Origin: Ustilaginoidea virens
Lineage: Eukaryota; Ascomycota; Sordariomycetes; Hypocreales; Clavicipitaceae
Direction of reading: 5' to 3'
DNA length: 64,000 bases
NCBI RefSeq assembly: GCF_000687475.1
Contig: NC_057319.1
Coordinates: forward strand, 868,001-932,000
Position numbers and translations under genes: made by a program. Shown piece by piece: positions 2,118 to 58,458 of this stretch (positions within the stretch are counted from its first letter, which is position 1; the number at the start of each line of letters is the position of its first letter). The notes beneath the pieces were generated by a model. That model was not told the DNA's origin. It did not search any database and was given only the letters and a program-made list of their open reading frames with translations.

Positions 2118-4867
2118 TCACGCCGACGCTGCACCTCTTCTTCGACTGGCCCCGGCCCCGGCCCCCGTCCGTGGCGCTCTCAGAGTATACTTGGCAAAGG
2201 CGCGCGACAGCGCCTTCTTGCAGCTGAGTTTCTGGCTGCCCACAAAGCTGTCCACCGTGACTGCGATGGCACGGTCAATGTCCTGGGCCGAGCAGTACTC
2301 TGACAAGCGCATCCGGCAAAAGGCCTCGCTGATGCGGATGATTGCTTCCAGGTGACGGACCTGCGCCGCGTGTTAGTCTTTGGTGATTTACTCCCCAGGG
2401 CGCATCCGTCGATATCCTGGCAACTCACCGTGATGGGATAGGCCCCGGCGGCCAGGGATTCTCTCCTCATGTCGGCAAAGAGACGAGCCACCTTGTCCTC
2501 GTCCATCTGGAAGAGCTTGGGGTGGCACCGCTCGCGGGCGTACAGGATGTACTTGCGCAAAAGTTGCTGCGGGATCTCGCCCTCCTTGGTCGCGCCCGCA
2601 GCCGCAGCCGCAGCAGTGTCTGGCCATGTCTCGGCCCGGGCAGAAGAATCGCCCCCAGAAGCCGTGTCTTGCGTCTCGGACAGGGCGGCGGCATCGCGCT
2701 CAACCTGCATCGAGCCCTGTGCCGCCGTCCCACGCACGGGGTGGCTGCGACTGTGCGACGACACTATAAACCGGGCCAGTCGCCCATCCTCCTCCGGCTC
2801 CACCGTGTCTCGCACCACGCAGAGAATGTCGAACCGAGACAGGATCGGCTCCGTGAGGTTGACGTTGGCGGAAAAGGGCAGCGCAGAGTTGTATCGCCCC
2901 CCCTGGGGGTTGGCTGCGGCAATGATGCCGCATCGCGCCTGCAGCGTCGTCACGATCCCGCCCTTGGAGATGGAAATGGTCTGCTGCTCCATGGCTTCGT
3001 GTATCGAAGTTCGGTCCTGGTCGTTCATCTTGTCAAACTCGTCAATCAGGCAGGTGCCGCGGTCCGCCAGCACCAGCGCGCCCCCCTCGAGGGTCCATTC
3101 GCTCGTCAGCGGATCCCGGCGCACGCTGGCCGTCAACCCGACCGCGCTGGCTCCCTGGCCGGTGGCGAACACGGCTCTGTGGGCAGTCTTCTCCACGTAC
3201 TTGAGCACCTGAGACTTTGCCGTGCCGGGATCCCCCAGCAGCAGCACGTTGATGTCGCCGCGGACGTGATGCTGGCCCCGGGTGATCTTGGAGACGCCGC
3301 CAAAGAGCGACAGGGCCACCGCGGTCTTGATGTCGGTGTGGCCGTAAATGCTCGGCGCGATGGAATTGACAATCTTGTCCACAACATCGGCGTCCCGGGC
3401 AAGCTTTCGAATCTCCTGCTCGTCTTCCTCGGTCATGCGGAACCCGGCCAGCTGGTCGTGGGCCTTGATGACGTTGTTCGCTTCCAGGATGGTGGCAAAG
3501 ACCGGGAAGCCGTTTCGATTGTTCAGTTGCGCGTTGTAGCTGTTGCGGTAGATGCCCGTCACCTCAATCTCCTCGCCCGGCTTGGCCTTGTCGATGAGGT
3601 CCCACAGCAGGATGACCTCGCGAGTGCGCGGCAAGCGGCCGGCGGGGACGGTGCCCGGAGACTCCTGGAGCGTCAGCTTCTGGTAGTTGCGGTAGACCGT
3701 CTTTTCCGAGTTGAGCGTGAAGGGGCCGCGAGACTGGCAGCTCTGGCAGTACGTGATCTTGACCTCCACGTTGGACTCTTGCTGGAAAGGGCCAAGAGTC
3801 ACCCCGCACTTGGAGCAGTCGAACTTGACGTACTTGAGCTGCGGAAAGACGCCGCTCCGGCGCGTGACGACTCCGCTGACGCGCACGAGGCAATTCAGGT
3901 GGGACTGACGCAACTGGCGAAGGGTGTAGTGCACGGGCAGGTCAAATATGCGCACGTGAATCTCGGAGTGGATTTGGTCGTAGTCGGGATAGTGCAGCAG
4001 GACAACGTCCATGGCGACTTGGTCGAAGAGCTTCAGCATCTCGGCGGGGGCATTGGCCACAAAGTAAGCCAGGATGGCTTTACTTTCGGACAGGTGCTCG
4101 TACGAAACCTCGAGGGACTCGGCATTCATCTCGCCAAGAGCACGAATGCGGTTGCCGTACACCGAGGACCCGGAGGCGTCGGTGTACGAGGTCAAGAAGG
4201 CTCTAAACTCTCGCTTCACCGTTCTCTGGACCAGTGGTTCCGAGACCCACTCGGTGAGGTTCTCGGCCTTGACGTCGCCGAGAGCCTCTAACGACAGGTC
4301 TTCGTCCATGATGTCGGCGTCCATGGCATCGTCTGCGTCTTCGTCGTAGTGGCGGCGGCGGCGGCGCGGCTGCGCAGTCAAATCCAGGTCGGCGTCGTCT
4401 TCATCGCCGGGCAAGAAGGCCGCCGGGATTCTCTGCCGACGAGCAACTTCTCTGTCACGTCGAGCCAACTGGGCTTCGAGTCTTCGTCTGTGTCCCAGAT
4501 CCATGTCGTCAAAGTCGCCTTCGTCGTCAATGCCGACGCCTTCGTAGGCGTCATCCTCCCGAGACCTGTAATCAGCTTCGAACCCTTCTCGGAACAAGTC
4601 GACATCATCTTCGGCCATTTCGTCCACGTCGTCAAGGTCGTCCTGAATCTCTGGTTCATCCTCCACGTCGTCATCGTCTTCGATGCCATGCATATGGTCG
4701 AAGGGCGCTGGGGGCGAAGAAGGCATTGGGCTGGATGCAAGCCCAGCAGGGGATGCAACATCATCGCCTGCATTTCTTGGGCGCTTTCGGCCCGATCGTG
4801 GACCAGCTCCTCGGTTGCCCGAGGTCGGGTTATCGCCAAGGGGGGAACTTGAGGCATCGGTTAGCAC
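2118..4867 (-). CDS. mcm2: DNA replication licensing factor MCM2 (5' end unresolved)
   Basis: Subunit of the hexameric MCM2-7 replicative helicase. Order seen: acidic serine-rich N-terminus with an RKR patch and a long Asp/Glu stretch, typical of MCM2; zinc finger C-x2-C-x19-C-x2-C (CSKC...CQSC); MCM AAA+ core with Walker A GDPGTAKSQ, Walker B DEFDKMNDQDRTS and arginine finger SRFD. The phrases VVTRRSGVFPQLKYVKF and LTASVRRDPLTSEWTLEGG point to MCM2 rather than MCM4. One intron near the 3' end, 2361-2428 (GTGAGT...GCAG), joins ...YPIT to VRHLEAIIRI; the stop codon is at 2118. The 5' end is unclear: MCM2-like sequence starts at about 4867, just after a possible acceptor (TTGCAG), while the first in-frame ATG is at 4726. 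A short upstream exon is likely; the frame remains open to 5212 but begins with GTG there. Confidence 0.93.
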
Positions 4868-5846
4868 CTGCAAGACGGGGGTTGTTGGGGGGAAGAGCGG
4901 AAGAACACATGCCTCATCGCCTCGTTTGCTCCTCCCGCAGGTGACAATTCGTTTCTTCCAACTTAAAGAGGTCGGGTCATTTATGTCATTGGGCGTCAAT
5001 TTCGGCAAAGGCCTAGGGACAAATCGGCGGGGTGATTTTGAGCAGGTGAGCCAAGTGAGGGGGGACGAAGTTTCTAACAAAGAACGAGAGGGGAGCTGCA
5101 GCTGCCACTTGGCGCCAGCGTGCGCACGGCAAAACGCAAAACGCGGAAAAGTCGCGTAAAGTGGGTGACTGCCGGATTGGCACCGGTTGACGCGTAAAGT
5201 GTCTGGTGCCACAAATAGCTGCGTCTACCGTCTAGGACGTCTCCCCCCCACTCACTCGCACCTTCCCCAATAAACACAATGCCATGCTGCCCCAGCCGAT
5301 TTTCCCCATACAGTACATGTACCGAGTACCAATCCGTCTTTTGCATAAACCCGTGCCTCCTTTACCCTCCCTACATGTCGTGATTCGCAACCTGGGTCGT
5401 GATACCATCCTCGCTGCCGAAACGGACAACACTCAGCTGCGAACGCCTTGGCTGGGGATACGATCATGGCCGTGCATGCGAAACACACCAATGGCTGGAG
5501 TCAATGCCTTGGCGAGGCTTGATGTGTGTGCATCCGTGACAGCCGTTGCCATTCGCTGCCCTGAATGATCGAATCTCGACCTCATCTAGCAAAGCCAGCC
5601 AGCGCGTACTCCGTGCCATGCATGTCATGATTGATTGGATCGCAATGCATACTCATTGTTGTGGCAAGCCCGAGTTCAGGCCGCAATGTTGTTGGGGTAT
5701 CTACTACAAACAGGAAATGAAGCCCCTGAAAAGGTGAAATTTTGGACATGTTCCCATCGATACGCCTTCCAAGCCCAAACGCCCCTTTTCGTCGCCCCTT
5801 GGTTCCCGTAAATATCAATGTCTGCCAAAGTCGAGGCATGCAGTCA
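4868..5846. other. Intergenic region between MCM2 and the Zn2Cys6 gene
   Basis: Holds the presumed MCM2 promoter and possibly its first exon. From 5200 to 5846 I see no convincing gene; the terminal part should carry the 3' untranslated region of the transcription-factor gene that ends at 5847. Confidence 0.4.
5141..5195. promoter_or_regulatory. MluI cell-cycle box and near-copies upstream of MCM2
   Basis: ACGCGT, the core of the MBF-bound MCB element that drives G1/S genes in yeasts, occurs at 5190-5195. Related CGCG cores lie at 5141 (ACGCGG) and 5152 (TCGCGT). In yeasts MCM and other replication genes use such boxes, so these probably belong to the minus-strand MCM2 promoter. The function is inferred from motif and position. 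Confidence 0.5.
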
Positions 5847-11144: not shown

Positions 11145-13189
11145 TTAGTGTGCGCGATAGTCGGGTTTGCGAGCCATGTTGACCGGTGGAGGGGGCTCAT
11201 CGTCGTCAACCGGGTAGGGAGGAATGGATGACTGGGATATGCGCGAAGAAGTCGGTGCGTGCGCCTGACGGAGGCGATTACCATCTGGCAAGGGAGTTTT
11301 GGGAGGCAAAGGAGGAGGTTCGATTCGCGTCGGCGGCGGCGCTACCTGCTGTGAGGGAGGCGGCCTCGGAAGCTCATCGAGGCTCATGACGGCAATCTTG
11401 TCCGTGTCGGACGAGATGTAGTACTGGTTAGGCGATGGCGCCGATACGAGCAAACGATCGGGATCGTCTCCCAGGGGGGTCATGGCCCCCGGATTCCTGG
11501 AATTGCCCGTGTTGGGTCGTATACGGTCGTGCGAGCTGCGAGGAGAAGCCAGCTGATTGGAAGCAACCTGCAAACTGTCGGATCCGGAATCGAATGACGA
11601 GCGGCTTGGTGGACTACGTGGAGGCGGCGACGAAAGCGATGTCGGCATATCGCCAGGTAACTCGACGGCGAGCGGCATGTCAAAGTTTGTCGCCGACGTG
11701 GATTTGACCAGTTCCGGGATACCCAGCTGAGCGCGGTCCCATCTGAGCTTGGCTTTGAAAATCTTGGCCAGCTTGGTAGAGATGCCCTGAATCATTTTCT
11801 GCTCCGTTTCCCGAGCCATGTACCTTCTGGTGCCTGTGCTTATGTCTCCCAGCCGATGCCATTCGTTCATGCCGAACTCGCCGACGCCGACTTCCACGTT
11901 TAGCCGGTAGTAGGTCTCGACGTTGACGCCGCGTTTGATGAGATGCTCTCTCAGCATGTACTCGTGGATCTTCTCGCAGCCTTCAATCTTGGCAATGAGT
12001 CGCCTTCGCGCTTCGGCAAAATCCCCCAAGAAACCCTCATACCACGCGTTTTGGTTTGAATCGCTAGACTTGGGCCGCTTGCCGGTTCCGACACTAACAA
12101 AAACCCCGATTTCGCGACCGGGCCATTCGTTCACCACAGCCTCGTCCAATGCTTCGGGCGCAGGGTTGAAGGTGCCTGAGCCGTCGTCGTGGAAGATGGA
12201 CTGGCCGATGCGGATGGGTTTGAATGCTAGACCTATCGCGCTGGTCGCACGTCCGGCTTGCCAGATCTTGCAGTCGAATTCCGGAGGGGGCTCACGCCTT
12301 GAATCGTACGATCGCAGCATGGCTGGTGGTGATCCTCTGGGGGATCCTTGATATACGGCAGTGACTGCTCTATTCAAACGTTCAGCATGTGATGGATCTC
12401 CCACAAAAAATATAAAATAAAATAAAATAAAATAAAAAAAGGGGGCGCTCGTTTGTCTTTTTGACCCGGATGAGAAGATGCAAACATACGTCTTGGTTCT
12501 TGTTTCCCGCGCATCGTACAATCTGGCGTGCGGGTTGCCGTGCCTTGGATTAAATGCCGGTCGCGCCAGCTGAGCTGATGGACTTCGAGCACTGAAACTC
12601 ACGGTGCTCGCGTTGCTCGCGTTTCGTCTGGGTCCGGCCGCGCTGGAGTATTGCGCGGGGTTTAAAGGGCTCATCAGGTCGACTTCTTGGCGACCATCGT
12701 TTCCTTCCCCTTCATGAATGGTGTGCTCCTGCACGGCCTGCTGGATCGCCTCCTCGAGCTTGCTGGCTTTGAAGAGCGTGGATCGGTAGGGGATTCCGGC
12801 AAATGTTTTGTCCGTCTCAAACACCATTCGCGTCATGCGCACATAGAGTTCCTTGCATGTCTCCAGGTCAAGGCGCATCCGGCCCAGCATAAGCGCGATC
12901 AGACCGCCAGTTCCGGTTCCTACGATGAGGTCGAAGTGGTCGCACGGCTTCGGGATCTCATGACGTCGCGGAGCTCGACCTTGGACCTCTACGAAGGTTC
13001 GGTGCATCAACTCCTGTACGATTATGAGCATAGAATAACCCCGGACGCCTCCTCCATCTTTGAACTTGTCAGCAGCCGAACGCGCAAGAGTACTTGCAGT
13101 GTTGGGGAGGACAGCTATTCACCTAGCGACAGGACTCGCAATGGTGGACCCTTGGTGGTGTCCTTCCTTCGGACACCATAGGCGTCCAT
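11145..13189 (-). CDS. Patatin-like phospholipase family protein lacking the nucleophile serine
   Basis: Patatins hydrolyse acyl esters with a Ser-Asp dyad. The oxyanion loop DGGGVRGYSM is seen after joining exons 13189-13123 and 13057-12490 (intron 13122-13058, acceptor AAG). The nucleophile elbow, normally G-x-S-x-G, reads GTGTGG because the middle codon is GGA (Gly), and the usual DGG/DGA site reads DGSGTFNP. A second intron, 12489-12370, joins ...RTKT to AVTAVYQG; it is rich in ATTTT and a multiple of three, so the frame stays open through it. The last 170 or so residues are Pro/Ser-rich and disordered. The frame is coding-like upstream to about 13260 (PSQLLHELRGRNLVNLAMDAYGV) but has no ATG before 13189, so a short 5' exon is probably missing. 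As far as I recall, fungal relatives also carry GTGTGG; catalytic activity is doubtful. Confidence 0.85.
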
Positions 13190-17432: not shown

Positions 17433-20092
17433 ATGGAGCCATCCTCCAAGAAAAGGAAGTTGGCTCCGAAAGTCAACGCTTCACCGGCCCCCAATTCTCA
17501 GCCCTCTGTTCCTCAGTACACCCGCGAGCCGTCGGTGAGTCACTGCAACCGACAAACCTCTCGATACAAACCTGTCCATAGGGCATGCCACATGCGTAGC
17601 AAACTGACACGACTTGTCAGCTATCACAAGGCCAGCATTATGCAGTTCAAGAAGCCCCGCTCATTGAACGGCAGGACTTTGAATCCTTCGCTCGCCATCT
17701 CCAAGACGCTGCCATGCTTATTCAGCGCCAGACTGAACGACCGCCTCACAATGATGTCTCGGTACTACTGCTGAGCTGGGAGGAAGACCGATCTGTAGAT
17801 TACGATGTTTTAGCCTTTCAGCAAGTACTGGAAACCAAGTACAACTTTTCCACCTACCGATGGCAAATTCCCACTGTGCCAAACCCCAGCATCAAGCTCG
17901 GCGTGCAGATGGCTTCTTTTCTGGAGAATGCCAGACCCAACCACTTGCGAATCGTTTACTATGCTGGTCATGGATATGTCGGCGGCGATGGCCATTTGTA
18001 CTGGGCATGGTGAGTCTACCAAGAGGGGGACGGACAGAGGCATTCTTCAGCCCTGTTAACATGCTGGGGACGCTCTAGCAACGCTCGCGATGACTCGGCC
18101 AAACTCAAATGGGACGGTGTGAGATGCTTGTTTGAGGATGCACAATCTGATATCCTTCTCCTGCTTGACACCTGTGCTATACCTGATCCTCCCACCTCAG
18201 GGAGCCACGGCATAAAGCAAGGGATAGCGGCAACGATGCCCGAACACAATGCTCTCGAATATAGCGCCCGCTCTTTCACCGCCAGCATGATTGAAGCCTT
18301 TGTAGCTCTGCAAAAGCTCTACAAAGGACGACCGTTCGGCGTCAACCGGCTGTTTGAGGAAATCGTTGCGCAAAAGTACATGCGCGCCGACGCCGCATCT
18401 GTCCAGCCGCAACTTCCACTGCTTTTCACTCTCACACCTGGTCAAAGTCGTAATTTGATGTTGGCCCCTTTGCCTCCAAGACCAGATCCTTTTATGCAAA
18501 ATGGCGGTGACGTGTCAGATGACCAGGGCAAACGCGATGGAGGAGATGACCTGATCGATCCAGAGTCGGTTTCTAACCTTCGATTTGACGAGAATCGGAT
18601 ACTCGTTTGCACCACCTTTGTCGGTGATGCTAGTCCTGACATGTCCTTTTTCCAGCAATGGCTTCAGAACACGCCACCGCTTGGGTCGAGAATTGCCGTG
18701 GAAGGAATGTTTCTAGGCCCGCCGACTATGCTTCTGATTTCCATGCCTCGCTCAGTATGGAGCATTGTGCAGCACGACAAAGTTTGCTGTTTCTTGGGAT
18801 ACATCAGCTCCCACAATATGATTCACCTGTATGAAAAAATGTTGGGACCTGGCGGCGTTCGGCCCTTTGATAAGAAAATAGAGGATGGAAAGATTCTTGT
18901 GCAAGCAAGCGAAGTTGGAGCTGTCACGCCCGCGAGGATTCATGGAGATCAGGATACCCACGAGCGCGTCTACCACGCTCCCGGTCCTCGAGAGGAAAAT
19001 TTCAAGGCCGAGGGAACAACCCTACTCCCTCAAACCAGCCCACCTCTGCTGCCCTTTGGAGTGGAAGCCCCTGAAGACGAGGGTGAGGTGGAAGATACCG
19101 CCGAAATGCAAGAGGCAGCAGAGCAGCTCAAGGCCCTTAGTCACGTGCAGCACAGAGGCAACGAAGCTGCGCCCGGAGAACGAATGCGCACTATTTTACC
19201 CGATTCCGTCTCGGAAGCAGCTCGCGAGAATGCTCGGCTGTCCCAGGGACCAGGCGACAACATTGGACGTGATTCAGCCACATTGATGGACATGCAAGTG
19301 GCTCCCGGCTCAAGAGGCAAAGGACGCCGGCGTTCTCTCACGAAGCAGGAAACACGATGCAGCCACTGCAGCCATGCACCGTTCAGGGATTCATCATCGT
19401 TGCGGAAGCACATTGCTGCCGCGCATACAAGACCCTTTCCGTGCGCTTTCTCCTTTGCCGGCTGCACAAGCACATTCGGATCCAAAAACGAGTGGAAAAG
19501 GCATATTGCCTCTCAGCATCTCTGCCTACAGTTTTACCGGTGCTCAGCCTGCCCCCAGGCCACGATTGAGAGCAAAGGCAATGAGTTCAATCGCAAGGAC
19601 CTGTTCACGCAGCATTTACGCCGGATGCACGCGCCTTTCCAAATCAAGAGGGCCATTTCGCAAGGTGATGAGCAACTGCAGTCAGAATGGGAAACGCACG
19701 TCAAAGGGATGCAACAGACATGTCTGGTCACAAGACGTCAGCCTCCTCAGAAAGCTGCATGTCCGAAACTTGATTGTCGGAAAGAGTTTGATGGCCAAAC
19801 CGCGTGGGACGAGTGGACAGAGCACGTCGGGCGACACATGGAGAAGGGTGAGGGCCCAGTTCTAGAAGTTGATGGCTTGCTAGTGCAGTGGGCATTGGAC
19901 GAGGGAATCATTGAACCGAAAGGGGACGGGGAGTACCGCCTATGCTCCTCATACTATCCACTTTCTTACCAGAGCAGCTCTGGACCGATGCTGGGCCGGA
20001 ACGACTCCATCTTTACTTCTTTGGCAGACTCTTGTCAAGTGGATGAGGTTCTGGCAGTAGGAGAGGCGAAGCTGGAGGTTGACGAAGGCTGA
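17433..20092 (+). CDS. Caspase-like domain fused to C2H2 zinc fingers
   Basis: Exons 17433-17534, 17621-18009 and 18079-20092 (GT-AG introns, 835 codons with stop) give 834 aa. The N-terminus has a basic cluster, SSKKRKLAPK, like a nuclear localisation signal. Residues ~85-290 resemble a caspase/peptidase C14 fold: a beta strand VSVLLLSWEED, then RIVYYAGHGY with candidate catalytic His151, then DILLLLDTCA with candidate Cys196, as in caspase H-G and D-x-C motifs. An acidic and Ser/Pro linker follows. Residues ~590-750 hold several C2H2-like fingers: CSHC...H-x3-H, CAFSFAGC...H-x4-H, CSACPQ...H, and CPKLDC...H-x3-H. A protease or pseudo-protease tied to nucleic acid or protein binding is a reasonable inference; substrate and pathway are unknown. 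The neighbours give no functional hint. Confidence 0.82.
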
Positions 20093-21185: not shown

Positions 21186-24100
21186 TCATGACTCAAGGGC
21201 GTTGAAGGTGGCGGCCTTGTCTAGGGGGAGATTCACGTCGTACGTCGACGAGGCTGGCTCGTCGCCGCCGAGGGAGCGCCCTCCCTTCCCCTTGCTGGGC
21301 TTGCGCTGCAGCCCCAAGAAGGTAATCTTGGAGATTCGCGCAGGCCCCTTGTAGTTGAAGACGCCGTCGATGGACAGGCAGCCGTTCTTGTAGGCAAAAT
21401 TGATGAGGGAGTGCCGGCCCTTTTGGTCGATGGAGACGCCGTCGTCGAGGTACAGCTGGCCCTTGGCCTCGCCCCTGGGCCCGTCCACGGGGACGATGAG
21501 CTCAAAGTCTTGCTTGCGGAGCTCGGCGGTGGTGTAGGTGGCGTTGAGGCGGGCCGGGAGGATGACGCCCGCGCGGATGAAGAGCGGGATGGTGGTGGTG
21601 TTGACGTCCCTGAGGGTGTGGACCTTGGCGCCGCCGCGGACCGGCTGGTGCGTGTACCAGTCGAAGAAGAGGTCGTTGGGCAGGTAGACGTCGACGCTGG
21701 TCGAGCCCTGCTGCGTGACGGGGGCGACGAGGAGGCCCGGCCCGAAGAAGTACTGGAGCTCGAGGGCCCACGTGGCCTTGTCCCTGGGGTAGTGGTAGAA
21801 GACGGGCTGGACGGCGGGGGTCCCGTCGGTAGAGGCGCGGTACATGGCGGTGTAGATGTAGTCGAGGAGTCGGTAGCGGACGGCAATGGCCCTGCGGGCG
21901 CTCTCGGCGACCGAGTCCCAGAGGTAGAACTCCTGGGGGATGGACGTGTCGCCGTTGTGGTTGCGGTAAAAGGTGGAGAAGGCGCCCAGGGAGGCCCACC
22001 GGGCGCAGAGCTCCTCGGTGGTGTTGCCGCCGAAGCCGCAGACGTCGGAGCCGACCATGCTGAAGCCGTAGATGGAGGTGAAGGCGAGCATCTCGCGGAT
22101 CGAGTTGCGGTACATGTCCCACGAGGAGAGGTTGTCGCCCAGCCAGTGGCCGACTTTCGATCCCGCGCCGGAAAATGTCGAGCGCGTGATGATCATGGGT
22201 CGGAGACCAGGGCGGCGGGCGAGCATGGCTTCTCGGGAGGCGATGGACATCATGGAGCCGTACATGTTGTGCGTGTCGTACATGGCCAGGCCGTTTTCGT
22301 GCATGATGTCCGTGTTGACGGTGTGGTTCGAGAGGCCGCCCTTGTCCGCGTTCCACGAGTCCTGGTAGGCGGCCTTGTTGTGAATGGCGTATTTGGGATA
22401 GAGAAGGTCGCGTCCAGGGAGACCCTTTCGATTGCCGTTTCGTGTGGCTCGAGCCTCGGGCTGCCGCCCGTCGTTGTTTCCAGCGGAGCGCGCCAGAACG
22501 TCAATGTCGCGGGGTGATTCGGCGACGGGAGAGCGGGCCAGGTGAGGCAGGGCGCCCCTGGAGCGCTTGCAGCCTGTGCTTGGGGGCTGGAAATCGCAAG
22601 GCCAGCCGGGTAGCTCTCTCGGGTTCTCGCGGACAGGTGGCGCTGGCGGAGGATACCCCTTGGCGGTAGCATATGGGTCGTCGCAGGGGAAGTTGCAGGG
22701 GAAGCTACTCGGCTCATTCATGTCGATCCAGAGAGCGTCAATGTCCACGCCGGTCTTCTTGTCGAAGAAGCTGGCAAACATTCCGGTCCAGTACTTTGCA
22801 ATGTTCTTGGAAAACCAGTCGGGAAAGACGGTCACGCCGGGCCAGACAACGCCAATCCAGACGGAGCCGTTGTTTCGCTTGAGAAAGATGTCGTCTTGGA
22901 TGCCGACATGCAGAGGGGCGTAGTCCTGATAGGCGACTGCGGGATCTACCATGAGGATATAGTGCTGGTCATGCTCGTGGAGGTGGGACACGAGCTGGCG
23001 CATCTTGTGCAATGGATAACGCTCGGGGTCTAGCGAAAAGACGCGACGACGGTCCATGTAGTCAATGTCTGTCCACATTGTTTCGAGCGGAATGCCGGCC
23101 TTGCTGTAGTTGTACACTACCTCGGCGACTTCATAAACGTCGCGGTAGCCGTACCTAGTGTGTGCGTTAAAACTTGCCCCCCCCCATCTTAATTTGAGAC
23201 AGGGTAGGTGGAGAGCGCATCGACATGGCGTTGTCTACGGGGGCCACACGTACCGACACTGATGGAATCCCAAACCCCAGTAGGGCTGCATTACCGGGTT
23301 CCCAGCAATCTCGGCATATTGCTGGGCGACCTTTGTCGGCGTGTTGCCGGAAAAGAACCACAAGTCAAAAACGCCTCCGAGAGTGTTGTACTCGAGGTAC
23401 TGACTGCCGTCGCTGGTCTTGTCAATCATGACATCCATGCCGTTGGAGTTTAGCAAGAAGACACCGTGGGACCCGGACTCTCGGTGCTCGAGATAAAAGG
23501 GCTGAGTACCGTACAGGTTTGCACCTTCGGGGAGAGCAAAACTGTCTTGGTTCCACATGGTCCGGATGTACTTGGTGGTGTTGAGTCTCAGGGGATCAGA
23601 GTGCTCGCCAAGGCCGTACAGGTAGGGGTCCTTGGGCAGCTTGGTACGCAGACGGAGATACTGTGATTCGAACACCAGAGAGGCGGCGGATGTGTCGAAG
23701 AGAACCTCGTGAGAATGCCGCCTGCTCACCTTGAATGAAAATGGGCTGGCTGTGTAGTGGAACTGGAGTTTGCTGCTAGAGGGAGAAGATTTTCCGGTAG
23801 GACGAGGGAAAACTGCTTCCGGGACTTGGTAGACCTGGTTTTCCTCGTCTTGAATCTTGACATGAAGGCGATTGTCTGTCGAAAGATGAAGAGTAAGTTT
23901 CTCGATTTCAAAAGCATTGGCGCCGTGACGCAGGGCAAAGCTCGGAAGAAGAAGTTCAGGAACCCACCAGACTCATAGGTCACTTCTAGAATAAGATTCT
24001 TCAAATCCTCGCCGTAGACGTTGCACGCTTCGCCGGCAAGGGAAAGGCGGGCCGTCAATCCATGGGCAGAGGTCTTGACATTTGACGCCTTGTATCCAGG

Positions 24101-28220: not shown

Positions 28221-29070
28221 TTAATAGCCACTTTGCTCCCGTCTTCCGTCGCCATGGCTGTCATCTTTGGAACCAGCAGCAGCCTGTCCGGCCTGCTCAA
28301 TACCATGCTCGTCGCCGCGCAGCTTGGCAAAGTAAGACTTGATGTCCTCTGCGCTGACAACCTTGCCGCTCTCGGCAAACTGCTGGAAGAACGGCTTCAG
28401 CTGCTCCTTGAGGTGGTTGTACGCCATGGCGCCCTCGATGGCCCTGACGCGGTCCACGTTCCGGAGAGCGCTCTCGCCGCGCTCGAGGAGGCTGCCGCTG
28501 CCGTGGGTAGAGCCGCCGTGCTGGGAGGCGCCGTCTTCAGACAGGGGCGGCTCGTAGACGTCTTCCTCTTCCAGGAGCTGCGGGTGGGTGTGGAGAAGCC
28601 GGTAGCAGTCTGGGCAGCGGCAGAGCTGGTCGCGGAAAGCTTGCCCGAAGAAGAGGCTGAATCTAGCAGCGGGCGGTGCGGGCAGCTGGGGCAGCTTGCA
28701 GCCGAGAGGGGGGGCGGCCTCTGGGCGGCTGGGTGCTCGCTGGTCGGTGATGGGGGCGGTGGCTGCGAGGCCGGCCGGTTCGGATTCGTCCTTGACGCGC
28801 TTGACGCTGGTGGGGGGTTGGGCATCTTCCTCGGCCTTGCGTTTGCTGCAGCCGTCTGGGGGGGTGGAGGGTGTCTCGGGCTTTGCTGCGCGCGCGGCCT
28901 CGTTGCCGGACGGGTCGAGGAACACGGCCGGCAGGAAACCAGGAGTACCGACGTAGCGTTTGATCCAAGGATGGGCGTCGACGCATTTGTAGCAGAGGAA
29001 GCCGAGGAAATCATCCTCGTCAGGAAACCCGAAGGGCATGGGTGGGTCGTCGTTGGCGTCGTCGTCTTCA

Positions 29071-29137
<67 letters not shown>

Positions 29138-30022
29138 CTCCTGCCACGGCGTCCAGTTGGTCTTCGTTGCCCTCCGAGATGGTGGCCAACCCGTCACCGT
29201 TCGCCCCGCCTGCTCCCTTGGTAGATGGCTTCTTTGCATTGCCCATTTTTTCATACCATTTCGGACCCAAGCCGACGAGGCAGCCGGGATGGTACCAGTC
29301 CTCGCCGCAGCCCCCTTGTTCAACGGTGCCCAGCCCTAGGCATTGGTACATGGTGCCTATCTGACTGTGTGGATCGTAATCGCAGTCGCAACCGCAAAAG
29401 ACGTTGCGGAAGTTCTTGTTGTACCTGTTGTTGATGTCGGGCTCTTCCGAATGCACGTTGCCTCTGGTGTTGTTTTCGCCGTTGGTGCGCAGAGTGCAAG
29501 GAGACTCCCTCGGGATCCTCGTGGTTCCGCAGTCGCAGGTAAAGTTGCGCTTCTGAAAGATCTCGACAAGGCGGTGCTGGCCGTGGCACTGGACCGAGCA
29601 AGCATAGCACAGGCCTGCCGGCTTCCAGTCCGGGGCGTCGTCTGTCGGAGGCGGATTGCACGTCAGGCAAGAATAGACTTGCTGCCGCAGCGGTCCGAGG
29701 ATCTTGGTGCATGATTCGATGCTCTGCGCGAAGAGGTCATTAGGGATGGATGCCTGCGTGCACGCAAGGGCGGGCGCCCGTAAGAAGGGGGGGGGGGGGG
29801 GGGTGATGCGATTCCAGTCGGCCAACGTACGTAGGGCAAGGCTTCGCGCGCGTCGGCCTCGAGCAGCTCTTGATGGCGTAAAAAGCTGCGGCTCGTTTTA
29901 GGACTCGGTCGCGCGTGGAGGAGGATGGGAGTGGTTCAGACGTACTCTGCTGCCGTTTGGGAATCCTCCGCGGCGTGGTTGCTGGCAGAGGCCGCCTTGC
30001 CTGCTGGCGGAGCCGTCGCCAT
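28221..30022 (-). CDS. UBR7/Mlo2-type UBR-box and PHD-like protein
   Basis: Exons 30022-29946, 29885-29831 and 29723-28221 give 544 aa (545 codons with stop). The start MATAPPAGK leads across intron 1 into DFLRHQELLEADAREALPY, a typical N-terminus of this family, and SIESCTKILGPLRQQVYSC follows intron 2. A second acceptor 33 bases earlier (at 29757) is also possible. The zf-UBR box spans about residues 60-125 with cysteine/histidine pairs (CLTC, CYAC, CHGQH, CDCG). A PHD-like segment follows (MYQCLGLG...GCGEDWYHPGCL). The linker has 22 consecutive alanines (29070-29135, all GCT/AGC phase). Next is a second Cys-rich patch (FLCYKC, CRCPDCY) and an acidic/basic tail. By analogy to UBR7 and S. 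pombe Mlo2 it may be a nuclear E3 or histone-linked factor. Intron 2 holds a run of 17 G on the + strand. Confidence 0.88.
29070..29135. repeat. (GCT)22 coding microsatellite, polyalanine tract
   Basis: Perfect trinucleotide run inside the UBR-box gene; on the minus strand it encodes 22 alanines between the PHD-like segment and an acidic stretch. Confidence 0.95.
29787..29803. repeat. poly(G) tract, 17 bp, within an intron
   Basis: Run of G on the + strand (C on the transcript) inside intron 2 of the UBR-box gene. Confidence 0.95.
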
Positions 30023-38054: not shown

Positions 38055-40696
38055 TCACACACCGCTCCACCAGTACGTCTCGCCAATGGCAAACGATGCC
38101 CTCACGACCGACGGCCCCTCGTCGCAAACGGCACTGCTGTCGCTGACAATCACGTCGTAGTCGCCCGCCTCGACGCACCACTGGTCGCGCTCCTCGTCCC
38201 AGTAGGCAGCAGCGTACTTTTCCAACTCCGTCATCGTCACCGTCTTGGTCTCGCCAGCTTCGAGCTCGACCTTTGCGAACCCGCGAAGTTCCTTGACCGG
38301 GCGGTTCACCTTGGCGGCCTGCCGCGGCTGAATGTACATCTGGGCCACTTGCGAGCCCCTGACGGAGCCCGTGTTCCGCACCTCGAGAGTGACGGTGAGC
38401 TTGCCCTCGGCCACGGCGACCGAGAGGTCGGAAAACGCAAAGGTCGTGTAGGACAGGCCGTGCCCAAAGGCAAAGTTGACTTGGCGGTCGGCGAGCTCGT
38501 AGTAGCGGTAGCCGACGTAGACGTCTTCGCCGTAGAGCGTGCGTCCTGCCTCGGCTCGGTAGTTGAGAAACGACGGCACGTCCTGCAGGCGCCTGGGGAA
38601 GCTGAGCGACAGCTTGCCCGAGGGGTTGGCGTCGCCAAAGAGCACGTCGGCGATGCAGTTGCCCGTCTCGTTGCCCCCGTACCACGCCTGGATCACGGCC
38701 GGGGTCTGGTCCAGCCACGGCATCTCCTCGGGGGTGCCCGTCTGCATCACCACCGCCGTGTTTGGGTTGGCCGCCGCGACTCGGGAAATCAGCTGATCCA
38801 GAAGGCCGGGGAGCTTCATGCTGCTTCTGTCCGCGCCTTCCGTCTCCCAGTCGGAGTTGAGGCCGGCGCAGATGACGACCTGGTCGTGATCCTCGGCGAG
38901 CCGCACGGCTTTCCGGATCTCCTCGTCGCCGTCAATCACCTTGCAGCCGCCGACGCGGAGGGATCCATGTCCAGGCACCTGGGCGTCGCCGGCCTTGAGG
39001 GAGTAGGTGGGCGCTGATGCAAACTCTATGCGCAAGCGGTACGTTGCTCCCTTGCTCATCTCGAAGCAGCCGCGTTCCTCGCGGGTGGCGGTTCCGAAAA
39101 AGGCGTCGCCGGCGACTTGCTTGGTGGCGTTGTCGACGACGAGCTCGTCGTCGACAAAGGCCTTGGCCGTTCCAGCCACCACCACCCCGAGCTCGTACAC
39201 GCAGTCCTCCTCGGCGACGAGGGAGCCTTCCATGTCGGCATACCAGACATCGGCCAGGTCGGGGTTGTGGTAGTCCACCAGGTGCATCTCCGTCTTGCTG
39301 AGGAAGAGCACATCTACGGGTGTCCGGTCAGGCGTGCCGGGAGGCTGGTTGTACACGGTCCAGCGCATGCCTTGCCTGCCCCCCTCCGGGTCGGTGCACT
39401 GAGGGCCGAGGAGAGGGAGGAATCGGTGGGTGTAGGCGCCCACGGTGTACTCGGGAGAAAGCCCAAGCTTCCCGCTGATGCCGTCGTAGGGGGTCACGGC
39501 ATAGTAGGCAGGCAGAGCGGCGGAACCGCCGCCGTGGTACGTTGCCACCTTGGCATTGGGGCCGACGACCAGCGTCTTGCCCTCCCTTTTCAACGGCAGG
39601 ACGTTGCGCTCATTCTTGAGAAGCACTATGCTTTCGTTGCCGATCCTGCGGAGCAGGGCAGCCGTTTCCGGCGTGTTGGCCTCCTCTTCAGGGCCAAACT
39701 CCTGGATACCCAGACCAGAGACCTTTTTGACAAGTTTCAAGACGGCTCGAACTCTCTCGTCGATGACGTGAGGGAACGGCTTGTCGGTCGAGGCATTAAA
39801 CTTGAGGGCTTCTCCGCGAAACCGCGGAGGGCCGGGCATCTCCACGTCGAGACCGGCGACAACGGCCGCGGTGGTGCTGTAGGTGCCGTACCAGTCGCTC
39901 ACGACGAGGCCATCCCAGCCCCACTCCTTCCGCAGCATGCCGTCGAGGTACTTCTTGTTTTCGCTGCACATGGTGCCGTTGACGCCGTTGTAGGCGGTCA
40001 TGAAGGCTCCAGGACGGGCGTCTCGAACGGCCAGCTGGAAGGGGAGCGCGTAAATCTCGCGCAACGCCCGCTCAGTGACGATGCTCTGGACACCCATGCG
40101 CTTGTCCTCCTGGTCGTTGCACAGGAAGTGCTTGATGGCCGCCTGCACACCGGTGCTCTGGATGCCCCTGACCAAGGCTGCCGCGCCAAGGCCGGCCAGG
40201 AACGGATCTTCCCCGAGCGACTCGAAGCCGCGACCACCGAGCGGAGACCTCTGCATGTTGACGGTTGGGCCGAGGATGACGTGGGCGCTCTTGGCCAGGG
40301 CTTCTTGGCCCATTTTCCTTCCGGCTTCTTCCAGGAGCGCCTGATTAAAGGTAGATCCTAGCGCCGTGCCGCAGGGGAAGCATGCCGACGGGACGCCATT
40401 GAAGAACCTGGTGCCTCTTACACCGTTTGGGCCATCCGACATGCGAAGGGATGGGATGCCATGTTTGGGGAGTGCCTTTGTATGCCAGAAGTCGATTCCT
40501 GGGGCATGTAGACACAGGAGTAAGCAAAGCGAAAGCGACAAAGATCCATCAAGATGCCGCCGCGGCTCTTTCTTTCCAGCCACTACCAAGGGGGGTTCGT
40601 GCTCCAGGTTACGGGCGGAAACTAACCTGCCAGCAGGTCGCACTTTTCGGACAAGGTGAGCTTTTGGAGCACTTGTTCAACATGGAGGTCAGCCAT
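38055..40696 (-). CDS. GH3 beta-glucosidase with PA14 domain, bglI/bglH-like
   Basis: Hydrolyses beta-glucosides, probably inside the cell because there is no signal peptide. Exons 40696-40627 and 40498-38055 (intron 40626-40499, donor GTTAGT, acceptor CCCAG) give 837 aa, matching the family of Aspergillus bglH/bglI. Order: N-terminal barrel (LTLSEKCDLLAGIDFWHTKA, SDGPNGVRGTRFFNGVP, SPLGGRGFESLGEDP, KHFLCNDQED), the nucleophile Asp ~225 in GLVVSDWYGTYS, a second alpha/beta domain (NESIVLLKNERNVLPL) containing a PA14 insertion at about residues 385-545, then WETEGADRSSMKLPGLLDQL, and a C-terminal fibronectin III-like domain ending near YWWSGV. Together with the GH31 enzyme 14 kb away it points to use of plant or fungal glucosides, but the two genes are not adjacent. 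Confidence 0.95.
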
Positions 40697-41232: not shown

Positions 41233-41359
41233 GGCTGTTTGTCGGCTGTTATTGGCTGTTATTGGCTGTTATTGGCTGTTATTGGCTGTTATTGGCTGTT
41301 ATTGGCTGTTATTGGCTGTTATTGGCTGTTACTGGCTGTTACTGGCTGTTACTTGGCTG
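41233..41359. repeat. 10-bp minisatellite GGCTGTTATT
   Basis: About twelve near-perfect head-to-tail copies, the last ones varying to GGCTGTTACT and GGCTGTTACTT. Intergenic, upstream of the GH3 gene. Confidence 0.97.
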
Positions 41360-43737
41360 TGCTCGGTTGAATGTCGGACAGCGGTTAGGCTACGATTTCC
41401 TCCGATCTCCGATCCCGTGAGCGGCGTGTTTGCCTGACCTGGAAGAGTGGGTCCTAGTTTACCGACCAACATTTTCCAGGATTGACGCGAATAGTTCAAG
41501 ACAAACAAACGACAAGACGACATGGCTCTGCCCATTCTTCTGAAAGGGCCGTACATGGAACAGCTACCGTACCTGCGGCTTCGGCCTTGGCCCTTTGAGC
41601 AGGAAGGACAATGGCTCCCCCGTAGAGAAGGATGGTCAGGTTGGTCCAGGTCTTTGCTTTGCCACCATTGCCCAGCTTTGCAGCGTTTGGAAGAGATGAG
41701 CTCATGCGGCCTGATGCGGGAAAGAGGACAGATGTATTTGCCTTTGATGCCGAGCGTTACGCGAAAATCCGGGCGTTTGATGTGTTGGTCAAACAGCATA
41801 GCATGGGTGGGCTCGCTGGGCCCCCCGTTCCCAGAAGGCGGGATTCTGCAACGGCAGACGGCACCATGCCTACGCATCGGGCTTTATCGACAGATGTTCC
41901 GTCGCACTGACTCGACGGCTGATGCAGATGCGGAGTGTGCCATTCACGGGGACAACGCGGAGGGAGACTTGTCTGCGAACACGCACATTTATCCGACCGC
42001 GAGCTGACATTTGCTGGAGCTCCCCACACCGAACGAGTCAACGCGATGGCATCACGCGATGCTCGTTTTCAAGGGAGACGGACCGATTGGCTGGTGTCGG
42101 GACGAGAGGGGAAGAGATTCGAAAGCGCATCCGGACCTGTCACCCCGGTGCGGAGCCCCCAGGCACGCGGAAGCTCAGGATACATCAGTCAGTAATGGCC
42201 GCCGGTCTGACGAGCGATGCAACTCGATCGATCTATGTTACCTGAGGTGCCATTGGAAGCGGCATCCGGGCATCCGGGGTTGCTGCCAAGAAAGACGGAC
42301 CAATGGCCGCACGATGCTAAGCCAAGGGGTCTTTTTATTCCCGTCATGGGCCTTCTGCCGGGACAGTCCTTTTCTCGGAAGCCACGAAGGGGGCAGGACA
42401 ATAAAGGCAATGGCCACCTCGGCTATCTGATAAGTGGTTGGTTCGTCAGACGCGCGGCCTCGAGGCGGAAAGGTCTTGACGGGACGCTGCAAGCAGCAAG
42501 ATGCCGACACAAGGCGCGCGACACATGGCCCGACACATGGCCCGACGGAGCGAAAAGGCGTGGCCCTTTTTCTTGCTCTCCAGCAACCCCATCAGCCTCC
42601 TCTTCTGGCATGTTTTCACCGCACGCCCCCTTTTCCCTCCTCTTGACCTTAGCCACGTTGGACTTGAGTACCCCTCACCATGGTCAAGTGGCTTCCCTGG
42701 CTGGATGAAGGATCAGGATGCGGTTCCGTCATGGGTCTCCTTGGTCCTGATTCGGTATTTGGTGCCTGTTTTGAGAGGATGAAATTTTCAGAATCCCCAT
42801 CCTGGACTGCCTGGATTTCATGCCAATCCGCCATCTCAGACACCACGGCCAAGGGTCCAAAGTCTGGCCAAGCATGGGACCCATGGCCTGATGGAGCGCG
42901 CAAGGACAGGGCCAACAGCTTTCGCAATGCGCCGTCACCAGCATCCACTCACCCTTGCGACCACGCCCCCCCCCCTCCCTCTCCCTCCCCGCTTCTCCTC
43001 ACCCTGTCTCTCACCTTTGACTCTGGAGATCCACTGGTACCTGGGGCTTGCGCGCACCGTTTGACAGCGGTCAGATTGGCAGGACGGGGGGGGGCCGTTA
43101 CGAAAGCGAAGGATCAAGGCAGGGGGCAAAAGGGGACACTTGTGATCCGTGGAACCGGCGTAGCGTCGGCTTGGAGCGGGTCATGGTTTCATGGAAACGG
43201 CATCTTGCCAGATCACGGCTGCCGAGAGCCGTTTGCACCCCAAGCCTGTGATGTTGCGCTACAACCCAAGCTCTGGGAATCCTGGTTTTGCAAGCGATCC
43301 ACTGAAGCACACGAGACGCGCGCCATGGTGCGTTTGCATGGCTAGGCCCTGCTGCACCAATGAAGCATCACGGGATCCCCAAAGACACAAACGGGGCCCC
43401 GGGGGGGGAGTGGGATTGAGACAAATACCTCGAGCAAGGCATTGCGCAGATTGCGAGCAGTGGCGGTTGTGAAGTGGCGAGGGCTGGGTCAAGGGCCAAC
43501 GTTGTTGCAGGCTCGCGGACTGTATTTGTTTGGGCTGGGCAGGGTCTGGACAGCCATGTCACTTGCCGATCGAGTCTGCCAACCACGGCGCTGGGAGTCT
43601 GGGAGCTCAGGAACGCGTCAATCGTCTTGCTGCAGGCGAGGGGCGGACGTTGAGCCGGGGGGGGGGCGGGCGCGGAACAACGTCAAATAATGAGGATTAG
43701 TGCCATCTTGAATGTGTCGAAAAAGGCGTGCTTTATG

Positions 43738-56823: not shown

Positions 56824-58458
56824 TTATCCGACAGCTACCAGGTCCTCGTCCTTGACAGCATCCACCAGCTCTTCCATGCCTCCGACTGCCGTGGGCCCAG
56901 CCATGCCCTCGGGCGGGAGGGCCCATGTGGGCAGAGGGCTCTTGTACGACCACGCGCCGTCGGCGTCCTCGTACCGCAGGCTGTGAAGCCACAGCGAGAG
57001 CTCGTGCATCCCCGGGTCAGAGTACAGCGGCGTGGCGCACACTCGGCATGTCTCGCCCGTCATCTTCTCTGCCCGCTGCTTCTCGTACTTGTCCACCATC
57101 TCGTCGTAGTACACCACGGCTTGGGCCACTTCCTCCTTGCCCATGCGCGACAGCCTGCTGATGACGTCCTCGTCCGTCGTTTCCGTGCCGTCGGCGTCCT
57201 GCCGGCCCAGCTTGAAGCCCCATACTCGCTGGTTCGCGTAGATGGGGTCGTTCTGGATCGGATGCCCGAGGTACTGCAGGTGCACCCTGATCTGGTGCGT
57301 GCGCCCCGTCACCGGAAGGCACCGGACGATGGAGTACCCGGCCTTGTTCGTCCAGGGCCTCCCCTCGGATCCCTCGGAAGCCTCTGGCCGCCCGTCGCGG
57401 CGGGCTGGTTCTTCGCCGGCCGAACCCCCCTCGACGCCGGAGCCTCCTCGGTCGTCGTTCCTCGGCGGGCGAGGATGAGGAGGAGGAGGAGGGTAGTACG
57501 CAAGCCGTTTGAAGACGGTTCGCGCGGGCTTGCCGTTGGCGCGCACGCGGTTGAGACCCAGCTTGGGCGATATCGACAGGATGGGCTGGTCGCACACCAC
57601 CTCGCCCTCGGGGAACTCGCCCACCACCCGCGCCATGTACTCCTTCCTCACGGTGCGCGACTTGATCTGGCTGCCCAGCGCTTCCGCCGCCTTGACGCTC
57701 TTGGCGACAAACATGATGCCGCTGGTCAGCCGGTCCAGCCGGTTGCACGGGTACGGCATGAACTGCTCCCCGCGCTCCGCCTTCATAATCTCCAGCACCG
57801 AGTTGAACTTGTACCGCCCGGCCGGGTGCACCGGCACGCCCGACGGCTTGTTGATGACAATCATCTCCTCGTCCTCGTGGATCACGCCGACCGGTTCCGA
57901 CGTGACGGGCGGCTCGTGCCGGTGCATCGTGTGCGATATCAGGTCCCCGTTCCGCAGGACGTAGTCGGGCCCGACTCGCTTGCCGTTGACGAAGATGTCC
58001 CCGGTTTCCATCGTGTTCCGGTAGTACTCGGCCGGACGGTCTCGAAACTCCGACTCAAAGACCTCAATCAAGCTCCTGCCTCGCCACCTCTCCTTGCAGT
58101 ACGTGTTGTACGTCCAGAAATACGGCCGTACACGTCGCAGATCCCCCTCAAAGTAGTACGGCGGCGGCCAGACGGAAGTGACGGGGGTGATCAACGGGCC
58201 GCCTGCATCGCCGGCTTTCCCCTGTGCAAACCGCGCCCTTGCCTGCGCAGCCGCTTCTTGGGATTCCTCCTTTTGTCTTGCGATTGCGGCAGCCGAGCAT
58301 GCTGGCGCTGGCGCTGGCGCTGGCGCTGGTATCGATGCCGTCGTGGTTGTTTCCGTGGCTGCTGCTGCACCGCTTCCATTCATGCCAGTTTCCTCCATCG
58401 TTGCGGCGAGTCTCTTTAGCAAGGCTCCCAAGGCTCTCAAACCTGGTCTCGCGAGCAT
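56824..58458 (-). CDS. RluA-family RNA pseudouridine synthase (Rib2/Pus8-Pus9 type)
   Basis: Isomerises uridine to pseudouridine, by analogy position 32 of tRNAs. Intronless, 544 aa. The signature NRLDRLTSGIMF carries the catalytic Asp242. Before it is an S4-like segment (NTMETGDIFVNGKRVGPDY) and the conserved VINKPSGVPVHPAGRYKFN; after it come YMARVVGEFPEGEVVCDQPI and TGRTHQIRVHLQYLGHPIQN. An Arg/Gly/Pro-rich insertion lies between AYYPPPPPHPRPPRNDDRGG and KAGYSIVRCLPVTGRTHQ. A C-terminal CRVCATPLYSDPGMHELSLW segment is typical of the eukaryotic Rib2-type members. The DRAP deaminase part of yeast Rib2 is absent. Two possible starts: Met1 (58458), giving the Arg/Leu/Ala-rich MLARPGLRALGALLKRLAAT that looks mitochondrial, and Met21 (58398). 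It diverges from the Fta4 gene across 326 bases. Confidence 0.93.
   Translation of the reverse strand: MLARPGLRALGALLKRLAATMEETGMNGSGAAAATETTTTASIPAPAPAPAPACSAAAIARQKEESQEAAAQARARFAQGKAGDAGGPLITPVTSVWPPPYYFEGDLRRVRPYFWTYNTYCKERWRGRSLIEVFESEFRDRPAEYYRNTMETGDIFVNGKRVGPDYVLRNGDLISHTMHRHEPPVTSEPVGVIHEDEEMIVINKPSGVPVHPAGRYKFNSVLEIMKAERGEQFMPYPCNRLDRLTSGIMFVAKSVKAAEALGSQIKSRTVRKEYMARVVGEFPEGEVVCDQPILSISPKLGLNRVRANGKPARTVFKRLAYYPPPPPHPRPPRNDDRGGSGVEGGSAGEEPARRDGRPEASEGSEGRPWTNKAGYSIVRCLPVTGRTHQIRVHLQYLGHPIQNDPIYANQRVWGFKLGRQDADGTETTDEDVISRLSRMGKEEVAQAVVYYDEMVDKYEKQRAEKMTGETCRVCATPLYSDPGMHELSLWLHSLRYEDADGAWSYKSPLPTWALPPEGMAGPTAVGGMEELVDAVKDEDLVAVG

Follow-up and report, generated by a model that had tools for sequence, protein, structure and literature searches.

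A predicted caspase-fold and ferredoxin-like module joined to C2H2 zinc fingers in UV8b_04774 of Ustilaginoidea virens, with a catalytic histidine position that changes repeatedly among relatives

The stretch considered here (the window) comprises 64,000 nucleotides of the rice false smut fungus Ustilaginoidea virens (contig NC_057319.1, positions 868,001 to 932,000 of the forward strand), and the coordinates below are those of the window. A gene with three exons occupies 17433-20092 of its plus strand. The product, 834 amino acids followed by a stop, is letter for letter and over its full length UV8b_04774, the top match in the protein search. A first-pass annotation, made from the letters alone, had described a single 834-residue protein pairing a caspase-like domain with C2H2 zinc fingers, and both the gene model and the identity to UV8b_04774 agree with it. 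The parts of the gene are as follows.

17433..17534, plus strand: exon 1, residues 1-34
17448..17471, plus strand: basic nuclear-localisation-like stretch KKRKLAPK, residues 6-13
17535..17620, plus strand: intron 1, GT-AG, 86 bases
17621..18009, plus strand: exon 2, residue 35 to the first two bases of codon 164
17741..18478, plus strand: predicted caspase-fold domain, residues 75-297, with a match to caspases
17969..17971, plus strand: codon CAT of His151, catalytic-His position
18010..18078, plus strand: intron 2, GT-AG, 69 bases, interrupting the coding part of the caspase-fold domain
18079..20092, plus strand: exon 3, third base of codon 164 to the stop
18173..18175, plus strand: codon TGT of Cys196, catalytic-Cys position
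18590..18847, plus strand: middle domain, residues about 335-420, predicted beta-alpha-beta-beta-alpha-beta-alpha
19088..19150, plus strand: conserved short helix in the linker, AEMQEAAEQLKALSH, residues 501-521
19358..19426, plus strand: zinc finger 1, C591-x2-C594-x13-H608-x4-H613, ligands conserved
19442..19519, plus strand: zinc finger 2, C619-x6-C626-x12-H639-x4-H644, ligands conserved
19541..19630, plus strand: zinc finger 3, C652-x2-C655-x20-H676-x4-H681, ligands conserved
19760..19837, plus strand: zinc finger 4, C725-x4-C730-x15-H746-x3-H750, ligands conserved

Residues 165-834 come from one uninterrupted exon, so that no splice separates the dyad Cys from the middle domain or from any of the fingers. 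The genome search found no other full-length match to UV8b_04774 in its own genome.

Relatives were collected by three protein searches. The full-length protein gave 997 matches at an expectation value (E) of 0.001 or less among 7,994 scored candidates, of which the best 120 were used; the caspase and middle parts as query gave 32 matches; and four divergent rows as query gave 1,131, of which again the best 120 were used. The total sample was 193 proteins, in which P0001 is the window protein. After exclusion of three distant relatives and of 63 of 190 rows with residues 140-200 less than 90% filled, 127 rows including P0001 remained; 123 rows have both the caspase and the finger regions filled. 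These family rows are called orthologues only as shorthand, assigned without a tree for each row. The organisms named among the matches listed for the full-length and divergent-row searches are, as we read the names, presumably Sordariomycetes; the divergent-row search was aimed at further classes of fungi, and the rows named among its listed matches were again, by their names, Sordariomycetes. Therefore, the distribution beyond this class rests on three shorter relatives brought in by the second search, P0148 (Kalmusia), P0151 (Xylographa) and P0152 (Gyalolechia), which we take to belong to other classes. Their records have no zinc fingers. P0148 is 27% identical over 97% of the caspase and middle query and still has the YYAGHG and DCC motifs; its 25.0 bits exceed the Pfam Peptidase_C14 cut-off of 21.4. 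P0152 stays below that cut-off (13.8 bits), and P0151 has no Peptidase_C14 row. The "DCC-type fungal proteins" of the first-pass annotation fit these distant relatives (DCC in P0148 and P0152, DCN in P0151). As to variety within the family, P0123 (594 aa, Stachybotrys chartarum IBT 40288) is a second, shorter and more divergent copy with the middle domain and finger block shortened, and the same strain has the full-length P0044. Record names among the matches listed include Protein STB3, ARCA-like protein, zinc finger Y-chromosomal protein and ZBTB11, none of which reflects the caspase fold.

First of all, structure prediction and comparison of the domain confirm that residues 75-297 carry a predicted caspase fold (clan CD, family C14-like), as had been proposed. 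The metacaspase His and Cys align with His151 and Cys196 (a 10-row profile covers both, an 84-row profile just the His), that is to say, the window protein has both residues of the dyad. They stand, as first described, in YYAGHG (residues 147-152) and LLLLDTC (residues 190-196), 45 residues apart. For P0001, the Pfam Peptidase_C14 model gave no row with E of 1 or less, and the sole NCBIfam row was NF047832, the EACC1-associated bacterial caspases, at residues 92-196 (E 3e-7, 30.1 bits). It was also the sole NCBIfam row for P0042 of F. graminearum (E 1.5e-11, 44.2 bits), and both scores lie far under the 140-bit cut-off. A type I metacaspase has a Q/P-rich N-terminus and a p20/p10 metacaspase domain; UV8b_04774 has a basic N-terminus and does not reach the Peptidase_C14 model, and the genome's own metacaspases lie at other loci.

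Between the caspase and finger halves lies a conserved, predicted-folded middle domain that was missing from the first account. When residues 322-450 were modelled alone with 76 rows, the predicted local distance difference test score (pLDDT) by block was 76-91 over the core. From the order of its elements, together with the RRM, EF-G and aspartate-kinase rows, we read the predicted domain as a ferredoxin-like arrangement; beyond those rows no specific relative was found.

The C-terminal half holds four conserved C2H2 ligand sets, in line with the "at least four" finger-like segments first noticed. Across the 123 rows the 16 zinc-ligand columns show no variation apart from a single gap in the last; Cys646 and Cys712 are invariant as well. 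For P0001 no Pfam zf-C2H2 type model exceeded its cut-off (the best score was 14.1 bits, the cut-off 27), and the probable reason is that fingers 2, 3 and 4 depart from ordinary C2H2 spacing. Some relatives share the finger block and have no caspase part; one example is L006 (38% across residues 617-752). At the other end of the protein, the nuclear-type basic stretch is present as KKRKLAPK, and a basic run is kept in all 110 rows in which the caspase core, fingers and N-terminus are filled. The linker is otherwise disordered around the helix AEMQEAAEQLKALSH, whose core, MQEAAEQLKALS, is unaltered in 111 of 123 rows; the helix has no second match in its own genome and is perhaps a partner-binding motif. 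Mean column entropy is 1.19 bits for the caspase region, 0.55 for the middle domain and 0.47 for the fingers. The fixed ligands, the basic run, the linker string and the low entropies together mean that selection is far tighter on the DNA-binding-type half and the middle domain than on the catalytic position.

The two dyad positions behave very differently across the family. Column 151 in the 127 rows is His in 87, Tyr in 34, Phe in 2, and Gln, Asn, Cys and Val in one each, so that 40 rows have a residue other than His; column 196 is Cys in 121, Gly in 5 and Tyr in 1. Of the two residues whose conservation was to be checked, the Cys is conserved and the His is not. Among the best 120 of 997, column 151 is His in 76 rows (one of them a fragment with the motif unaligned), Tyr in 36, Phe in 2, and Gln, Asn, Cys and Val in one each, with 2 gaps, and column 196 is Cys in 115 and Gly in 4, with one gap. 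His is found in 84 of the 123 rows with both regions filled. Moreover, P0145 and P0163, outside the 127 rows, have Arg at or near the His position.

A quick tree without bootstrap was made from 84 of the 120 rows, picked by hand, and the two trait columns were masked for it; by subtraction, the other 36 rows comprise 24 with His, 10 with Tyr and 2 with gaps. On this tree at least 17 changes between His and non-His are needed, 14 of which are forced by branches with a Shimodaira-Hasegawa-like approximate likelihood ratio test (SH-aLRT) value of 95 or more, and the loss of the Cys is a single change, shared by three Xylaria rows and one Rosellinia. Close relatives differ as well: P0067 of Verticillium dahliae has His and P0060 of V. 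albo-atrum has Tyr, and Colletotrichum P0043 and P0054 differ in His state. The two V. albo-atrum records themselves conflict at column 151 (Tyr in P0060, His in P0069), which suggests polymorphism or a species-label problem. The His codon of the window, CAT, is one transition from TAT. Site rates over the 221 columns of the caspase region place His151 at rank 166, among the faster columns; residues 147, 148, 149 and 150 just ahead of it are slow (ranks 45, 16, 34 and 20), and so is Cys196 (rank 25).

A His elsewhere that might compensate was sought among the 12 columns of lowest p, and within the caspase fold of non-His rows none general enough was found. Inside the fold, His is enriched in non-His rows only at columns 257 (9/32 against 2/52) and 95 (6/32 against 0); outside it, the enriched columns are 357 (18/32 against 4/52), 453 (18 against 5), 324 (17 against 7), and also 531 and 566. 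These counts follow phylogeny and are uncorrected.

The same pair of domains occurs in another protein of the U. virens genome, encoded at locus L007.

L007 1-2250, minus strand (contig C5 of the own genome, about 2572631-2574880): homeodomain and rhodanese protein with a caspase-like/ferredoxin-like pair in its N-terminal part

In the genome search L007 matches residues 172-412 of UV8b_04774 with 28% identity (E 1.7e-15), and direct comparison gives E 4e-23 over residues 173-411; it is nearer to P0148, at 34% identity. One open frame carries the Cys half of the caspase domain, the middle domain, the homeodomain (32.0 bits, cut-off 22.9) and the rhodanese domain (33.7 bits, cut-off 22.2). Its Cys motif is LILLDCC, and a frame upstream has YYGGHA for the His motif; read by eye, the two frames would be spliced together. 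The usual homeodomain motif is WFxNRR, and that of L007 is WFHHRR. The combination of homeodomain and rhodanese is described as characteristic of the MoHOX4, pah7 and NCU00100 class (PMC5666362), and on this domain signature L007 is a putative orthologue of the MoHOX4/pah7 genes. Deletion studies report smaller conidia for MoHOX4 (PMC2779367) and an altered perithecium distribution for pah7 (PMC3360767); the word "caspase" is absent from the main text of both papers.

On these grounds UV8b_04774 is probably a nuclear zinc-finger regulator whose caspase-fold and ferredoxin-like domains form a regulatory module with no need for protease activity. This reading rests on a predicted fold that matches caspases, on where the dyad residues lie, on repeated His loss with the architecture otherwise unchanged, on zinc ligands that stay fixed, and on the second appearance of the module in L007. 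Since His151 is lost repeatedly while the four residues before it barely change and the Cys is kept, proteolysis is unlikely as the family's shared function. The dyad His would then be dispensable to the family, and the Cys, the strand core and the middle domain would not. The protein would be located in the nucleus and its fingers would bind DNA; the module would be its protein-protein or sensing part, serving in binding, dimerising or sensing, and may control the fingers, for example through homotypic or heterotypic caspase-fold contacts. An analogous case is the pseudo-p20 protein cFLIP, reported to make caspase-fold contacts with caspase-8 (PMC6426788). A broader and more tentative proposal, to which we give slightly less than even credence, is that a class of filamentous-ascomycete nuclear regulators carries this module either on C2H2 fingers or on a homeodomain-rhodanese protein, the caspase fold being a non-proteolytic switch or assembly part in which the His is free to vary and the Cys is kept for another role.

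Several observations weigh against a non-proteolytic module, and some of them speak for its strongest competitor, in which the protein is an active caspase-like protease wherever His151 and Cys196 are kept, U. virens included, for example one that cuts itself so as to release or destroy the finger part, with activity lost secondarily elsewhere. U. virens and 83 of the 127 rows overall keep both dyad residues, hence the U. virens copy, judged from its sequence, could be active. Cys196, in addition to evolving slowly, is kept in 38 of the 40 rows without His, a higher retention than would be expected if a dead active site drifted freely. P0148, with its YYAGHG and DCC, passes the Pfam C14 cut-off. 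The residues after the His are not slow (152 at rank 89; 153, 154 and 155 at ranks 162, 119 and 156 of 221), and since 153-155 are fast and 147-150 slow, the His column marks the junction of a slowly evolving strand and a variable loop. Relative to the remainder of the protein, rows without His show a faster caspase region (summed ratio 2.84, compared with 2.23 in His rows; p 0.029, without correction and with rows that are not independent). Of the six sister pairs, five have the longer caspase branch, and four the longer branch for the remainder, on the non-His side; this could mean relaxed constraint after loss of activity, and the rate difference and the sister-pair branches are compatible with protease and non-protease readings alike. 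However, supported branches alone demand at least 14 switches of the His state, with the other domains retained, and that state differs between close relatives in Verticillium (P0060/P0067) and Colletotrichum (P0043/P0054); an essential activity would not behave so. An active protease is therefore considered rather unlikely, though it is the alternative to be taken most seriously. Of the two possibilities first named, "protease or pseudo-protease", the second is favoured at the level of the family because the His state changes often in the same architecture, and the first keeps its footing in the intact dyad of U. virens.

Fungal caspase-like proteins are usually discussed as death or stress proteases, and an executioner or sensor of regulated cell death or self/non-self recognition had likewise been suggested here. 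The caspase fold, the weak match to the EACC1-associated caspases and a patatin-like frame about 4 kb upstream (11145-13031) could be cited in its favour; EACC1-associated caspases are known from proposed bacterial conflict systems (PMC7159879). Nevertheless, there is one full-length match in the genome, the protein is conserved throughout the listed relatives, with middle and finger parts that vary much less than the caspase region, and, of the 16 window frames of at least 330 aa, the ten scanned with Pfam showed no STAND, HET or gasdermin family at E 0.001, though intron-split genes can escape such a scan. As nothing here lends that suggestion real support, such a role is regarded as very improbable. 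That two separate genes were wrongly joined by annotation is next to inconceivable, for a single exon runs from before the dyad Cys past the last finger, both regions occur in the same order in 123 rows, and no support for a wrong joining was found.

Two named regulators were considered as possible identities and set aside. FsCGBP has 535 aa and two fingers, and UvCGBP1, a C2H2 regulator of U. virens, has two fingers with no mention of a caspase in the available part of its description; UvCGBP1/FsCGBP is therefore not UV8b_04774. CHE1 of Fusarium has 310 aa and three fingers.

Compared with known systems, UV8b_04774 is like caspases, the paracaspase MALT1 and metacaspases (C14) in fold and dyad positions, and unlike them in that its family does not conserve the His, Pfam C14 does not match P0001, and the fold shares its polypeptide with a ferredoxin-like domain and C2H2 fingers. 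Pseudo-orthocaspases, according to PMC6426788, are bacterial, mainly from alphaproteobacteria and cyanobacteria, and their commonest variant has His replaced by Tyr and Cys by Ser (YS). On that description Tyr is the favoured substitute for His in both groups, whereas the fungal family is eukaryotic, fused to fingers, and retains the Cys in 38 of the 40 rows from which the His is gone; Ser is found at column 196 in none of the 127 rows. The likeness to the MoHOX4/pah7/NCU00100 class runs through L007, which shares the caspase/ferredoxin-like N-terminal pair, with homeodomain and rhodanese there and C2H2 fingers in UV8b_04774. In the databases, P0047, a record of the same family that groups with Colletotrichum, is named "Putative peptidase C14, caspase domain, Zinc finger C2H2-type, transcription factor Grauzone"; this name shows both domains, so the pairing as such is not new. 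Other entries of the family are named C2H2-type domain-containing protein, and no title among those listed from an open-access library concerns this family. The database names convey neither the His-loss pattern nor the middle domain; new here are that pattern, the middle domain and the module common to a homeodomain-rhodanese protein. Retention of the fold, the Cys and the fingers alongside repeated loss of the His, in a family conserved this widely, amounts to a natural experiment on caspase folds that do not cut, and the pattern directs attention to gene regulation. Sister species that differ as His and Tyr lend themselves to direct comparison. Because the module also sits in a homeodomain protein whose class has deletion phenotypes, the idea can be put to the test in laboratory fungi.

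Other frames in the window, recognised by Pfam, are listed below.

2180-5212, minus strand: MCM2-type helicase frame
11145-13031, minus strand: patatin-like phospholipase frame
21186-23117, minus strand: GH31 frame
28221-29825, minus strand: UBR-box protein frame
38055-40643, minus strand: GH3 with PA14 frame
56824-58458, minus strand: pseudouridine synthase frame

An Rfam scan of the 64,000-nt window gave no match. At 41244-41360 there is a tandem array of 11.6 near-perfect copies of the 10-mer GGCTGTTATT.
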